Below are positions 4,397-43,629 of a DNA stretch of 64,000 bases, piece by piece. The DNA is from Clostridia bacterium (GTDB taxonomy: Bacteria; Bacillota; Clostridia; Christensenellales; Borkfalkiaceae). The notes below the pieces were generated by a model that had not been told where the DNA came from, searched no databases, and saw only the letters and a list, made by a program, of their open reading frames with translations. Position 1 is the stretch's first letter, and each line of letters begins with the position of its first letter. The stretch is from NCBI GenBank assembly GCA_017536205.1, contig JAFXHX010000010.1:1-64000 (forward strand), given 5' to 3'. The translations under genes were made by a program, and so were the position numbers.

Positions 4397-5368
4397 TTAT
4401 TTAACTTTGGGAATACCGTTTTCATCGTATTCCCACTCGCCTAATAAGTAATAGCTTAAATTATCGGGGTTCCAACCCGATGCAAAGGTGGTAGGAACAG
4501 ACGTAACGTTAAAATATATTTTACAAGACGGATTGCAACCTGCAAACTGATTGCTAACGCCACTTGACGACGCCATCGTTTTGCAACCTGACGGTAAAAC
4601 TACGTATTCAAGTTTTATGCAACCATTAAATGCATTAACGCCTATTTTACTTATAAGGTCGCCAAAATATACGTTTTTAAGGTTTATGCACGCATTGAAA
4701 GTGTTTGCCCCTATTTCAGAAATGTTACTGCCTAAATACACCCTTTCAATACCTTGCGAGCCTTTAAAAAGAGAGTGACCAAAATTAGAAACGCTGTTTG
4801 GAATGCGAACTTCTTTAAGTGAAGGCGTGTAAGCAAAGGCTTCGGTACATATTGACGTAAGCCCTGAGTTTAATTTTAGACTTTCAATAGGGTCGTTTTT
4901 AAAAGCGTAGTAAGAAAGTTCAACTACGGGATAAGTTACACCTTCGTAAACTTCATGCGAAGGTATTTCAACGTGCACCCAGTCGTGTTCGGGGGTTGCA
5001 ACGTGGTCTTTTCCAGCAGAATCGTAAGGCACAGTGTCGCCATTACTATAGGTATATCCGTTAGGATTTGCGGCGCCGTAACAAATTAAACCATTTCCAT
5101 ATCTATTTAACTTATAAGTTAAATAAGGGCATTTAAAATAGTAACCGCAATCGCATTTACCCTTTTTGTTAACGTGACTGCTAAAATCTACCACGGGCAA
5201 ATCTTCATCGCCACCTTCTAAGAGTGGGCGCCAGTGGTTTTGCGCGTCGTAAACAAAATAATCTGCGTAAACGGGACCTTCGGGTTCTTTATTGCACGAA
5301 GTGAGCGCAAAAACTGAAACGCACGTGAATATTGATAATATAAGAGATAGTGTTTTTTTAATATTCAT
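4397..5368 (-). CDS. BspA-like leucine-rich repeat lipoprotein 1
   Basis: This 323-residue predicted lipoprotein has a basic N-terminus, a hydrophobic core and the lipobox LTSC (22-25), so it should be lipidated at C25 and held on the outer face of the membrane. A conserved segment follows with H65, C72, C74 and C80 (pattern H-x6-C-x-C-x5-C), which could bind a metal. From about residue 150 there are LRR_5 (BspA-type) repeats of about 23 residues with the F..C..L..V.L spacing. BspA-like repeats commonly mediate adhesion or ligand binding; the ligand here is unknown. It is paralogous to the next two genes. It has its own promoter and terminator and no Shine-Dalgarno: the -10 box ends 6 nt before the ATG. 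Confidence 0.8.
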   Translation of the reverse strand: MNIKKTLSLILSIFTCVSVFALTSCNKEPEGPVYADYFVYDAQNHWRPLLEGGDEDLPVVDFSSHVNKKGKCDCGYYFKCPYLTYKLNRYGNGLICYGAANPNGYTYSNGDTVPYDSAGKDHVATPEHDWVHVEIPSHEVYEGVTYPVVELSYYAFKNDPIESLKLNSGLTSICTEAFAYTPSLKEVRIPNSVSNFGHSLFKGSQGIERVYLGSNISEIGANTFNACINLKNVYFGDLISKIGVNAFNGCIKLEYVVLPSGCKTMASSSGVSNQFAGCNPSCKIYFNVTSVPTTFASGWNPDNLSYYLLGEWEYDENGIPKVK

Positions 5369-5374
5369 ACAGTT

Positions 5375-5403
5375 ATAATATCATTAAAGGATATAATTGT
5401 CAA
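5375..5403 (-). promoter_or_regulatory. promoter of lipoprotein gene 1 (predicts leaderless mRNA)
   Basis: On the minus strand, TTGACA (5398-5403), a 17-nt spacer, TATTAT (5375-5380), then 6 nt (AACTGT) and the ATG at 5368. A normal start site about 7 nt after the -10 box would fall on the start codon. No purine-rich ribosome binding site is present. Confidence 0.7.
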
Positions 5404-5416
5404 TTTATTACATAGT

Positions 5417-5450
5417 AAAACACGCAGTAAATTGATAATAACTGCGTGTT
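5417..5450 (-). terminator. terminator of lipoprotein genes 3-2 operon
   Basis: A 10-bp perfect stem (5419-5428 with 5441-5450) has a 12-nt loop and an A run at 5417-5420 (U tract on the minus strand), directly after the gene ending at 5461. Confidence 0.65.
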
Positions 5451-5460
5451 TAATTTTTAA

Positions 5461-6444
5461 TTATAAAGCGTAAGGTTCGCCGTTAGCGTCGTAAGCCCAC
5501 TGACCTTTCCAATAGCATTTAATCCCCATAATGTTCCAGTCGTGAGCAAAGCCCGCTGGCGCCGATTCGTGTTCTAAATATATTGTTGCTTTGCGATTAG
5601 TTTCTAAAAAAGGAGGATAAGTCGTTGCAGGCGATGCAGGACCAATGTTATCCATTTCAACGCACGATTCGGGAATAACGATATATTCAAGACTAGTGCA
5701 ATTGTAAAAAGCAACTGCATAAATAGCCTTTAAGTTTTTGTTAGTATAAACCCTTTTAAGATTTGAGCATTTATAGAAATTATAACTGCGAATTAAAGGA
5801 ACGTTTTCACCTAAATAAACAGTTTCAATACCATTTGACTGAAAAAATAATGACGTACCAACGCTATTAACCGAGTCTGGAATACGAACTTCTTTTAGCC
5901 TTGGAGTGTACGAAAACGCTTCTGTACCTATAGATTTTAACCCTTCGTTAAGTTTAATAGATTCAACTAATTCAGAAGTAAAGGCGTATGAAGCAAGTTC
6001 AACAACAGGATAAGACGTGCCTTCATATTCAGCATATTTAGGAACTTCAACGTGCACCCAGTTATAAGTAGAAATACTATCTACACCATTTTTATCTTCG
6101 TAAGAATGATATTCTTCACCATTAGAATATTCGTAATAGTAACCATTATCAAGGTCTGCAGCGCCGTAACAAATTAAACCATTTCCATTTCTATTTAACT
6201 TGTAAGCCAAATAAGGGCATTCAAAGTAGTAACCACAAACGCATTTGCCTTTTTTGTTAACGTGTTCACCGTAATCGGTATACGTGGGGTCGGTTTCGCT
6301 ACCTTCAAGTAGAGGGCGCCAGTGGTGCTCTTCATCATAATCGTACTCTTCTGAATAAACAGGACCAGTTGGACCACAAGAAGTTAAAATAAACGATGAA
6401 AAGCACAAAATTATAGATAGAATTAACGTGAAAAGTTTTTTCAT
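5461..6444 (-). CDS. BspA-like leucine-rich repeat lipoprotein 2
   Basis: This 327-residue paralogue has signal sequence and lipobox LTSC (20-23), a tyrosine/acid-rich segment ending HHWRPLLEG, the HVNKKGKCVCGYYFECPYL cysteine motif, and C-terminal LRR_5 repeats ending in a GQWAYDANG-type tail shared by all three copies. The N-terminal half is close to gene 3 (6474-7463) even at nucleotide level, which implies recent tandem duplication. It starts 29 nt after the end of gene 3 and, unlike its neighbours, has a GAGG ribosome binding site 6 nt before the ATG, as expected for an internal operon gene. It should be surface-exposed; the ligand is unknown. Confidence 0.8.
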   Translation of the reverse strand: MKKLFTLILSIILCFSSFILTSCGPTGPVYSEEYDYDEEHHWRPLLEGSETDPTYTDYGEHVNKKGKCVCGYYFECPYLAYKLNRNGNGLICYGAADLDNGYYYEYSNGEEYHSYEDKNGVDSISTYNWVHVEVPKYAEYEGTSYPVVELASYAFTSELVESIKLNEGLKSIGTEAFSYTPRLKEVRIPDSVNSVGTSLFFQSNGIETVYLGENVPLIRSYNFYKCSNLKRVYTNKNLKAIYAVAFYNCTSLEYIVIPESCVEMDNIGPASPATTYPPFLETNRKATIYLEHESAPAGFAHDWNIMGIKCYWKGQWAYDANGEPYAL

Positions 6445-6473
6445 ATAAACCTCGTTATATATTTTTAGAAGTT

Positions 6474-7463
6474 TTAAAGAACGTAAGGCACGCCTTTTGC
6501 GTCAAGCGCCCACTGTCCATTTAAATAATACGGTATTATATCAGTATTCCACTCTTTAGGAAAGGTTGAAGGTATAGCATCTGCTTTAAAATATAGTTTT
6601 AAAACTTTAGGGTCGCAATTTTGGAATGGCGAATATTTTAAACCCTCAATAGACGTCCAGTCAACGTTAATACTAGTGCAAGTTTCAGGAATGATTAAAT
6701 ATTCAAGCTTAGAGCAGTTATTAAACGCAGATATTCCTATATAATTAATTTTATCGTTTAAATAAACGTTTTTTAGATTTCGACAATCATAGAAGTTGTA
6801 TCCACCAATTTGAGTAACGTTTGCGCCGTAATATACGGTTTCGATAAAACTATTTTCATAAAATAACGAATGACCAATGTCAGTAACCGAGTCGGGAATA
6901 CGAATTTCTTTCACTCCTGAATAAGAAAACGCTTGACTTCCTATCTTTAAAAGCCCTTCGTTAAGTTTAACAGATTCAACCATATCAAGAGTAAAGGCGT
7001 ATGAAGCAAGTTCTACAACGGGATAAGACGTACCTTCATATTCAGCATATTTAGGAACTTCAACGTGAAGCCAGTTGTTAGTAGCAATGTTATCTACACC
7101 ATTTTTATCTTCGTAAGAATGATATTCTCCACCAGTAGAATATTCGTAATAGTAACCATTTTCAACGTCTGCAGCGCCGTAACAAATAAGCCCACCCCTA
7201 CCGTTTAAACGATAAGACAAATAAGGGCATTCAAAGTAGTAACCACAAACGCATTTGCCTTTTTTGTTAACGTGCGTGCTATAATCGGTATAAGTTGGGT
7301 CAGTTTCGCTACCACTAATAAGGGGGCGCCAGTGATGCTCTTCATCATAATCGTACTCTTCTGAATAAACAGGACCAGTTGGACCACCTAGAATGCAAGC
7401 AGTCAACGAAAACGTTGAAAAACAAATTATAAGCGATAAAATTATAGTAAATATTTTCTTCAT
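6474..7463 (-). CDS. BspA-like leucine-rich repeat lipoprotein 3
   Basis: This 329-residue paralogue is the first gene of a two-gene unit with lipoprotein 2. It has lipobox LTAC (20-23), the same HHWRPL segment, the same three-cysteine motif following NKKGKC, and LRR_5 repeats from about residue 150. The shared tail (GQWALDAKG) suggests a conserved C-terminal cap. It is driven by a perfect TTGACA-17-TATAAT promoter whose -10 box ends 6 nt before the ATG, and no Shine-Dalgarno is present, so translation is probably leaderless. The MKK signal-peptide start argues against a later start codon. Confidence 0.8.
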   Translation of the reverse strand: MKKIFTIILSLIICFSTFSLTACILGGPTGPVYSEEYDYDEEHHWRPLISGSETDPTYTDYSTHVNKKGKCVCGYYFECPYLSYRLNGRGGLICYGAADVENGYYYEYSTGGEYHSYEDKNGVDNIATNNWLHVEVPKYAEYEGTSYPVVELASYAFTLDMVESVKLNEGLLKIGSQAFSYSGVKEIRIPDSVTDIGHSLFYENSFIETVYYGANVTQIGGYNFYDCRNLKNVYLNDKINYIGISAFNNCSKLEYLIIPETCTSINVDWTSIEGLKYSPFQNCDPKVLKLYFKADAIPSTFPKEWNTDIIPYYLNGQWALDAKGVPYVL

Positions 7464-7469
7464 GTTGTT

Positions 7470-7498
7470 ATTATAGCATATAATAAAATATATGTCAA
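7470..7498 (-). promoter_or_regulatory. promoter of lipoprotein 3-2 operon (predicts leaderless mRNA)
   Basis: On the minus strand, a consensus TTGACA (7493-7498), a 17-nt spacer and TATAAT (7470-7475), then AACAAC and the ATG at 7463. The geometry is identical to the promoter at 5375-5403. Confidence 0.8.
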
Positions 7499-7511
7499 TA
7501 ACTACAAAATG

Positions 7512-7534
7512 AAAACCCCGATTAAATCGGGGTT
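7512..7534 (-). terminator. terminator of the YfbR-like gene
   Basis: A 9-bp GC-rich stem (7514-7522 with 7526-7534) with a 3-nt loop and a short A run on the plus strand lies just after the gene ending at 7539. Confidence 0.7.
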
Positions 7535-7538
7535 GATT

Positions 7539-8117
7539 TTATTCGAGTTCATCTAGCGAGCAAAGGTATCTGGGCGCAATATTTTCCATAAAATATTTAA
7601 CTTCTTCTCTATCGATATTCATAACGGAATTATAAAGCGTTTCTTTTGCTTTAACGAATTCGCTATTTCCAGACTTAACTTCTTCAACGCATTTAATATA
7701 CGCCGATATTTTATCTGCCGACTTCATAATTTTATATTCTTCACTATTTTCGTCGGGTAAAACGTAAGGCTTATAACCATCAAGCAATTCTGTTGGTAGC
7801 GTTTCTAGTAGTTTAAGGCAAGCACCCTTTTCAATATCTTTATAAGCGGAATTGATTTCTTTATTAAAGTATTTGATAGGCGTTGGTAAATCGCCCGTTA
7901 TTACTTCACTAGTTTCGTGGTATTGCGAATAAAGCACAACCTTTAAAACGTCAACTTTACCACCGAAGTAGCGATTTTTAATTTCGGCAAGAGCGTGAGC
8001 AATAACGCTAACCTGCTCGGTATGTTCGCTAACGTTTTCTTCAACGGTGGAACGCATAAGCGCCCAACGCTTGATATATTTCATTCTATTTATATATGCA
8101 AAAAAATCGTATTTCAT
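7539..8117 (-). CDS. yfbR: YfbR-like HD-domain 5'-nucleotidase
   Basis: This 192-residue protein matches E. coli YfbR, a dNMP 5'-nucleotidase, through its whole length: FFAYINRMKYIKRWALMR at the start, ENVSEHT, the HD-family YHETSEV (E replaces the usual D of YHDASEV), and LTGDLPTP-type ITGDLPTPIKY. In E. coli the enzyme removes phosphate from deoxyribonucleoside monophosphates. Homology places the start at 8117, with AGGAG about 6 nt upstream. A second in-frame ATG nine codons earlier (8144) also has its own AGGAG, so a 201-residue form is possible. It is divergent from thiT. Confidence 0.85.
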   Translation of the reverse strand: MKYDFFAYINRMKYIKRWALMRSTVEENVSEHTEQVSVIAHALAEIKNRYFGGKVDVLKVVLYSQYHETSEVITGDLPTPIKYFNKEINSAYKDIEKGACLKLLETLPTELLDGYKPYVLPDENSEEYKIMKSADKISAYIKCVEEVKSGNSEFVKAKETLYNSVMNIDREEVKYFMENIAPRYLCSLDELE

Positions 8118-8181
8118 AAAAACTCCTTTTGAAAATTGTAACATAACTTCACTCCTTTTTCAAGAGTTTAGCAAAATATTG

Positions 8182-8210: not shown

Positions 8211-8225
8211 AAAATTACAATTTAA

Positions 8226-8294
8226 AAGCAGGGGTGCTACGGCTGAGATTATACCCTTAGAACCTGCCATGGTAATTCATGGAAGGAAGGTTGT
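8226..8294 (+). promoter_or_regulatory. TPP riboswitch (THI element)
   Basis: The sequence carries the conserved THI-box blocks in order: GGGGTGC, GGCTGAGA, ACCCTTAGAACCTG and a terminal GGAAGGAAGG segment. It binds thiamine pyrophosphate in this family. Placement between a promoter and a thiamine transporter gene supports the call. The downstream hairpin at 8304-8322 suggests control by transcription termination. Confidence 0.92.
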
Positions 8295-8303
8295 TTTTTT
8301 CGT

Positions 8304-8332
8304 GCGCCCAAATTATAGGCGCTTTTATTTTT
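8304..8332 (+). terminator. riboswitch expression-platform terminator
   Basis: A short GC stem (8304-8308 with 8318-8322) is followed by TTTTATTTTT. The thiT ribosome binding site GGAGG (8333-8337) lies directly after the T run, so the element could switch both termination and ribosome access. Confidence 0.65.
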
Positions 8333-8344
8333 GGAGGAGATTTT

Positions 8345-9025
8345 ATGTATAATTTGCTTGCACTTAACGAACAACAAATCACTAACCTCTATATAGGAAT
8401 ATCGGTTGCACTTATAGTTTTGGCACTTGTATTAGTTCTTATATTAGGTAGAAAAACCGTGCGTTTTACGGCTAAAAAACTTGCTTTCGTGGCAGTTTCG
8501 GTTGCGCTTACAACCGTTTTGTCGCTAATAAAGTTTGAAATGCCGTTTTTAAACGGTGGCTCGATAACGCTATTTTCACTAGTACCAGTTTTACTAGTCT
8601 CTTATGCGTTTGGGCTTTATTACGGTTTAATTACGGGCTTTATAACTGGGCTTTTGCAGTTTATAACGTCGCCTTGGGCGTTAACGCCATTATCGTTCTT
8701 TTTAGACTATATTCTGCCCTATTCTTGCGTATGCTTTGCGGGAGTATTTAAAAAGAACGTTAAAAACCAAACGCTTGCAATAAGTTTGGGAACGGTTTTT
8801 AGTTACTTAGTTAGGTTTGTTATGCACTTTTTATCGGGACTTAACTACTACTCTATGGGCTATATAACGGAAGGTTTCCCCGCAGATAATATGTTTATTT
8901 ATTCGTTTGTGTATAACCTAGCGTACGTTATGCCAGATATGGTAATTTGCTTAATTTTCTTAATACCGTTTACGTTTACAAAACCGTTTAAAACTTACTT
9001 TTTAACGGGTGAAAACTTTAAATAG
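8345..9025 (+). CDS. thiT: thiamine transporter, ECF substrate-binding subunit ThiT
   Basis: This 226-residue membrane protein is the S component of an ECF transporter that captures thiamine and works with a shared energy-coupling module encoded elsewhere. Six or seven hydrophobic helices are visible, including an extra N-terminal one (about 14-34). SPWALTPLSFFLDYILPY and YYSMGY resemble the ThiT substrate-site segments. I chose the ATG at 8345 because GGAGG lies 8 nt upstream; an in-frame ATG at 8279 is inside the riboswitch aptamer and is not a start. The TPP riboswitch upstream predicts repression when thiamine pyrophosphate is plentiful. Confidence 0.92.
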   Translation: MYNLLALNEQQITNLYIGISVALIVLALVLVLILGRKTVRFTAKKLAFVAVSVALTTVLSLIKFEMPFLNGGSITLFSLVPVLLVSYAFGLYYGLITGFITGLLQFITSPWALTPLSFFLDYILPYSCVCFAGVFKKNVKNQTLAISLGTVFSYLVRFVMHFLSGLNYYSMGYITEGFPADNMFIYSFVYNLAYVMPDMVICLIFLIPFTFTKPFKTYFLTGENFK

Positions 9026-41417: not shown

Positions 41418-42113
41418 TTATAGGCTTTTTTCAGTAATTATTCCGTTTTCTTGGGTTAAAAGGTAGGCGTTATTACCACTTGATACCGTTTTTTCAAAAA
41501 CGCCGTTTTTAAACACCAAGGCGCAATCATCGCATACGGCGTAAACGCTATTTACGCTCATTGTAACCATTGCGCTTTTAAGGTCTTTTTCACGAAGGTT
41601 ATAGTGCGGGCACATACTTCCGTTTATTAAACCAAGACCTTTATAAAACTTATATTCGTTTGATGCGCCCGAGAGTATTTCGCTATCGGTGTACATATTT
41701 TCAAACCAGCATACTGCGCCTGCCGACCTACCTGCTAAAATAACGCCGTTATCGTAAGCGCTTATTATCTTTTGAGTTAGCCCGCGCTCTTGCCACTTTT
41801 TAAGCATATATAAGGTATCGCCACCTGAAACGTAAATAAAATCGGCTTTAGAAAGTTTTTCATCGATTTTCTCGCTAGTCGTTTCAACCTTTTCAAGAAG
41901 CAAACAATCTGCCTTTATATTAAAAACCGAAGTGTAAGTTTTTCTAAACGTGTTAAAAGCGGGCATAAAATCGTGCGAAGCAGTGCCTATATATAGCCCA
42001 ACTGCACGCCTATCACCTGCACGCTCTTTTGCAAGATTTGCAATATATTCGTCAATTTTCAAAGTGGTTTTAAGGCGCATATCGCCCCCACCTATAGCAA
42101 CTAAAGTTTTCAT
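41418..42113 (-). CDS. pepE: peptidase E-like serine hydrolase (peptidase S51 family)
   Basis: This 231-residue cytoplasmic protein has the S51 fold signatures: the N-terminal IGGGD, YVSGGDTLYML, the nucleophile elbow AGRSAGAVCW (catalytic Ser), and CPHYNLRE with the conserved His. Peptidase E cleaves Asp-X dipeptides; related S51 members have other roles, so substrate is tentative. The ATG at 42113 fits the family start (MKTLVAIGGG). It has no ribosome binding site, and a TTTACA-17-TATAAT promoter ends 6 nt before it, so the mRNA is probably leaderless. An ATG at 42131 also lacks a ribosome binding site. Confidence 0.85.
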   Translation of the reverse strand: MKTLVAIGGGDMRLKTTLKIDEYIANLAKERAGDRRAVGLYIGTASHDFMPAFNTFRKTYTSVFNIKADCLLLEKVETTSEKIDEKLSKADFIYVSGGDTLYMLKKWQERGLTQKIISAYDNGVILAGRSAGAVCWFENMYTDSEILSGASNEYKFYKGLGLINGSMCPHYNLREKDLKSAMVTMSVNSVYAVCDDCALVFKNGVFEKTVSSGNNAYLLTQENGIITEKSL

Positions 42114-42119
42114 ATTTTT

Positions 42120-43629
<1,510 letters not shown>

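Follow-up and report, generated by a model that had tools for sequence, protein, structure and literature searches.

The locus raises the question of why two neighbouring lipoprotein genes each carry a promoter with its -10 box only 6 nt away from the ATG, and whether such genes are expressed from leaderless mRNAs. An earlier note had reported TTGACA-17-TATTAT/TATAAT followed by 6 nt and the ATG, without a Shine-Dalgarno (SD) site, at both leading genes, and direct reading together with promoter scans confirmed the exact boxes. The features of the locus, and a third candidate elsewhere in the window (the whole 64,000-nt stretch of DNA that was analysed), are as follows.

4397..5368, minus strand: LRR_5 (BspA-type) lipoprotein of 323 aa, single-gene transcript (Pfam PF13306, E 2.4e-25; signal peptide and lipobox read from the sequence).
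5366..5403, minus strand: predicted leaderless promoter of lipoprotein gene 1, from direct reading and promoter scans (-35 box TTGACA, 5403-5398; -10 box TATTAT, 5380-5375; discriminator AACTGT, 5374-5369; ATG, 5368-5366).
5418..5451, minus strand: stem-loop AAACACGCAG/CTGCGTGTTT followed by a short T run, a likely terminator between the two transcripts, read from the sequence (its loop exceeds the length limit of the terminator scan).
5461..6444, minus strand: internal paralogue, an LRR_5 lipoprotein of 327 aa, second gene of its transcript (SD-like GAGG at 6453-6450).
6474..7463, minus strand: LRR_5 (BspA-type) lipoprotein of 329 aa, first gene of a two-gene transcript (Pfam PF13306, E 5.3e-26).
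7461..7498, minus strand: predicted leaderless promoter of lipoprotein gene 2, from direct reading and promoter scans (-35 box TTGACA, 7498-7493; -10 box TATAAT, 7475-7470; discriminator AACAAC, 7469-7464; ATG, 7463-7461).
7514..7534, strand not given: stem-loop terminator of the preceding HD-domain gene (7539-8144), from the terminator scan, 15 nt upstream of the -35 box.
41421..42148, minus strand: ORF of 231 aa, third leaderless candidate in the window (TTTACA-17-TATAAT-AAAAAT-ATG at 42148-42111).

The two lipoprotein promoters are the top two matches of the region in the promoter scan (12/12 and 11/12), and both include the extended -10 TG. The spacer of gene 1 is 17 nt long (attatatcctttaatga), with TGA ahead of the -10 box, and that of gene 2 has the same length (tatattttattatatgc), with TGC ahead of the box. 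The SD score was 0 for both leading genes, which start at 5368 and 7463. A check upstream of the two leading ORFs found no in-frame ATG, GTG or TTG; the nearest in-frame stop is a TGA at 5 codons in gene 1 and a TAA at 26 codons in the other. A start further downstream is unlikely for either gene because the ATG opens a short signal peptide with a lipobox (LTSC and LTAC, read from the sequence). The internal paralogue follows 29 nt behind the gene at 6474-7463, with whose product its own is 65% identical, and the GAGG that the earlier note attributed to it was found at 6450-6453. Tandem arrays of diverged paralogues of this LRR_5 lipoprotein family also occur in other species of the genus (G473:C19 and G504:C3; L105 and L103). 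Beyond the HD-domain gene, a TPP riboswitch match at 8220-8305 on the plus strand (44.9 bits against the Rfam gathering score of 54.3, E 9e-8) precedes a gene for a multi-pass membrane protein at about 8348-9025, perhaps a component of a thiamine transporter.

The distance from the end of a -10-like hexamer to the first ATG was then measured for 1,031 ATG-start genes in 1.24 Mb of the 1.39-Mb genome. A simple script based on codon usage supplied the gene calls, and some starts may therefore be wrong. An exact TATAAT ended 6 nt before the ATG in 31 of the 1,031 genes, compared with 0 to 5 genes at each spacing of 1-5 and 7-11 nt. With one mismatch allowed in the -10 box, 65 genes had a spacing of exactly 6 nt against a mean of 5.25 at neighbouring spacings (Poisson p ∼4e-47), an approximately 12-fold enrichment. 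The excess amounts to about 60 genes, approximately 6% (5.8%) or one gene in 17. Adding a -35 box with up to two mismatches left 39 genes at 6 nt and 0 to 3 at 4, 5, 7 and 8 nt (2, 3 and 0 at 5, 7 and 8 nt, respectively).

The genome has a G+C content of 39%, and it could be argued that its AT-rich intergenic DNA yields TATAAT near ATG by chance. This explanation is refuted by the absence of any peak at 4, 5, 7 or 8 nt, and the strict pattern TTGACA-N16-18-TATAAT-N4-9-ATG gave 12 matches while its reversed-pattern control gave none. Furthermore, gene-level histograms repeated the 6-nt peak in two G+C-rich relatives, G064 (58% G+C) and G080 (56% G+C), and we consider the probability of a chance origin negligible. 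The genome-wide peak likewise refutes, as a full explanation, the proposal that the arrangement was inherited by tandem duplication at the two lipoprotein genes and reflects nothing general. The three lipoproteins are indeed tandem paralogues, 50-65% identical, and duplication may explain why two neighbours share the spacing; however, some 60 mostly unrelated genes have the same spacing, as do orthologues in other genomes, which makes this proposal very improbable.

A logo drawn from the 57 best members of the 6-nt class reads TTGACA-N14-TGTGN-TATAAT-NNNNNT-ATG, an extended sigma-A consensus. The T at -1, which played no part in selection, is present in 95% of the class compared with 68% of SD genes (p 1e-4). 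Start codons preceded by an exact TATAAT at 6 nt were ATG in 33 cases, GTG in none and TTG in one. The peak coincides with missing SD sites: a match of 4 nt or more was found in only seven of the 65 class genes, leaving 58 without. The statement that nearly all other genes have strong AGGAG sites was too strong when extended to the whole genome, where an SD match of at least 5 nt is present in about 63% of genes. The view that leading genes are leaderless and internal genes use SD sites held as a general pattern: 3 of 53 class genes (6%) lie within 30 nt of an upstream gene on the same strand, compared with 46% of SD genes (p 9e-10 for depletion from operon-internal positions).

A minor class was also seen in this genome, comprising 15 genes with a -10 box 9 nt before the first ATG (p 4e-4). 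The sixth base after the box is often T and the seventh a purine, which suggests some leaders of 3 nt; for a few of the 15, a shifted hexamer also places the gene in the 6-nt class.

It could be that the promoters close to the ATG are secondary and that the main transcripts originate at more distant sites and so have a leader, as in Clostridium phytofermentans, where most genes with a potentially leaderless start possess a second one upstream and retain a ribosome binding site (PMC5171806). In the present class, however, 58 of the 65 genes lack an SD site. At the lipoprotein locus the intergenic space before gene 2 is short (75 nt, 7464-7538) and contains a terminator and the promoter, and the promoters in the window are the best matches of the region. 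We therefore regard such secondary promoters as an unlikely account of the class.

The best explanation, to which we assign a probability of approximately 0.88, is that the two lipoprotein transcripts belong to a leaderless class of about 60 genes (∼6%) whose translation would begin at a 5'-AUG independently of SD sites. Sigma-A promoters normally start transcription approximately 7 nt after the -10 box. In the proposed mechanism, sigma-A RNA polymerase would recognise a complete TTGACA-17-(TG)n-TATAAT promoter in which exactly 6 nt separate the -10 box from the ATG. With this spacing and a T at -1, +1 would therefore fall on the A of the ATG, so that the mRNA would lack a leader and carry AUG at its very 5' end. 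Ribosomes would then initiate directly on the 5' AUG without SD pairing; mRNAs with a 5'-AUG are translated in this way from the 5' end in other bacteria. The class would consist mostly of single or first genes, while downstream genes in the same transcripts would keep their SD sites. We infer from the DNA where transcription starts, that the mRNA lacks a leader and that translation initiates at a 5'-AUG. Several features strongly support the leaderless reading: the 6-nt spacing is exact and exclusive genome-wide, SD sites are missing, a T stands at -1, starts are restricted to ATG, and the genes head their transcription units. Leaders as short as 1-3 nt may also exist in the class. S1 domains are present in the genome, including a 732-aa frame with two of them, and there is thus no obvious case for a loss of S1-like proteins as the cause. 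A 16S rRNA gene was not found in the assembly.

The earlier note had tied the leaderless promoters to lipoprotein genes. While the leaderless part of that proposal is strongly supported, the link to lipoproteins is not. By a crude lipobox regular expression, the 57 leaderless candidates include two convincing lipoproteins and one further match that looks false, compared with 37 matches among 663 SD genes. In the same genus, SD sites such as AGGAG precede the genes for the closest homologues of the window lipoproteins. A lipoprotein-specific leaderless set was thus rejected, and the two genes in the window probably share their arrangement owing to tandem paralogy.

The members of the class are diverse, comprising five AraC-type regulators, at least three of Xre type and one of TetR type, RNase R, SmpB, a UvrD-like helicase, Maf and others. 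This composition suggests that regulators are enriched in the leaderless class. The Fisher tests of that enrichment took 0/75 for SD genes, an insecure figure since families matched only once would be hidden in the comparison set of 75, whose 25 commonest families include no HTH family.

This genome contains 26 matches to the pattern TTG-N20-TATAAT-N6-ATG; it is the sole listed member of its order in a phylum sample of 348 genomes, where the next counts were 18 in one genome and then 9 or fewer. The genome with 18 matches at the 6-nt spacing (G457) belongs to the same taxonomic class and another order, and this class of genes may occur in a second lineage. Across 121 genomes of the order, the 6-nt form gave 1,015 matches compared with 395 for an 8-nt control. 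When the counts were transferred by hand into a family comparison, the 6-nt excess among these genomes was strong in families f1, f3, f6, f8, f16, f28 and f32 and absent in f4, f13, f15, f23, f31 and f33; the gene-level histogram of G035, a member of f4, had no 6-nt peak. The spacing is thus enriched in about half of the better-sampled families of the order, missing from others and uncommon in the sample of the phylum. Within the genus the pattern count ranges from 26 to 4. One genus relative, G490, had little or no excess and no significant peak (p 0.08); its TetR orthologue and one AraC orthologue retain TATAAT at 6 nt.

The smpB gene provides a further comparison, with at least 8 of 30 family members having a -10 box at exactly 6 nt in flanking DNA that looks dissimilar. 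The chance expectation is about 0.15 genes (p ∼2e-12, with species treated as independent). The script labelled 8 of the 30 as leaderless; the smpB genes of two more, L187 and L203, have a -10 box at 6 nt as well, and for these the script called an SD site from G-rich letters at or upstream of the -10 box. In L021 (15175-17755), smpB lies next to rnr, and both genes have a separate -10 box at 6 nt from the ATG, the smpB promoter sitting in the 37-nt gap behind rnr and in the end of rnr itself. What is directly observed is the arrangement in the DNA, together with its statistics and the fact that it recurs in relatives. A more speculative and distinctly doubtful extension is that several families of the order share a sizeable, partly gene-conserved, regulator-enriched leaderless class, and that this class would form a translational regulon answering jointly to ribosome state (e.g., 70S availability or stress) in a lineage thought to be near-universally SD.

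Leaderless mRNAs are known to be translated from the 5' end without SD pairing in other bacteria (PMC12340547). In a survey of 953 genomes, Zheng et al. (2011) found TA-led leaderless genes within the Firmicutes mainly in Lactobacillales and Mycoplasma (PMC3160421). The class described here resembles the TA-led genes in that a Pribnow-like signal directly before the start codon takes the place of an SD site; the strong TATAAT of low-G+C Firmicutes is a further point of likeness, as is the enrichment of transcription genes if the suggested excess of regulators holds. It differs in belonging to another Bacillota-type order and in having a recognisable -35 box in most members. The -10-adjacent ORFs of Deinococcus-Thermus are also similar, since a -10 motif placed a few bases ahead of the ORF directs synthesis of a leaderless mRNA, and their spacing requirement was shown by experiment (PMC12340547). 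There, however, the motif is TANNNT, works without a -35 box and serves about one third of D. radiodurans genes, whereas the present arrangement is TTGACA-17-TATAAT in about 6% of genes, as predicted from DNA.

The nearest published start-site maps found were those of C. difficile, with only 15 leaderless candidates (PMC7438776), and C. phytofermentans, in which the leaderless set is rare and mostly bears ribosome binding sites (PMC5171806). In two enterococci, leaderless genes make up less than 1% (PMC7724050). No published report of a leaderless class in such a lineage was found in the part of the literature covered, and an earlier prediction in related genomes is possible. The GeneMarkS-2 paper reportedly classified leaderless genomes widely, with predictions for thousands of genomes. 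On the best reading, a known mechanism, the leaderless mRNA, would thus occur in a new place, as a sizeable minority class.

If transcript 5' ends confirm this, leaderless expression would be a regular, sequence-predictable mode for approximately 6% of the genes, and this in a lineage of Bacillota type that belongs to neither of the two Firmicutes clades for which it was reported. Gene finders that seek SD sites may misplace the starts of class genes during annotation. Moreover, the on/off pattern among close families and genera offers a natural comparison for the study of switching between SD-led and leaderless expression.
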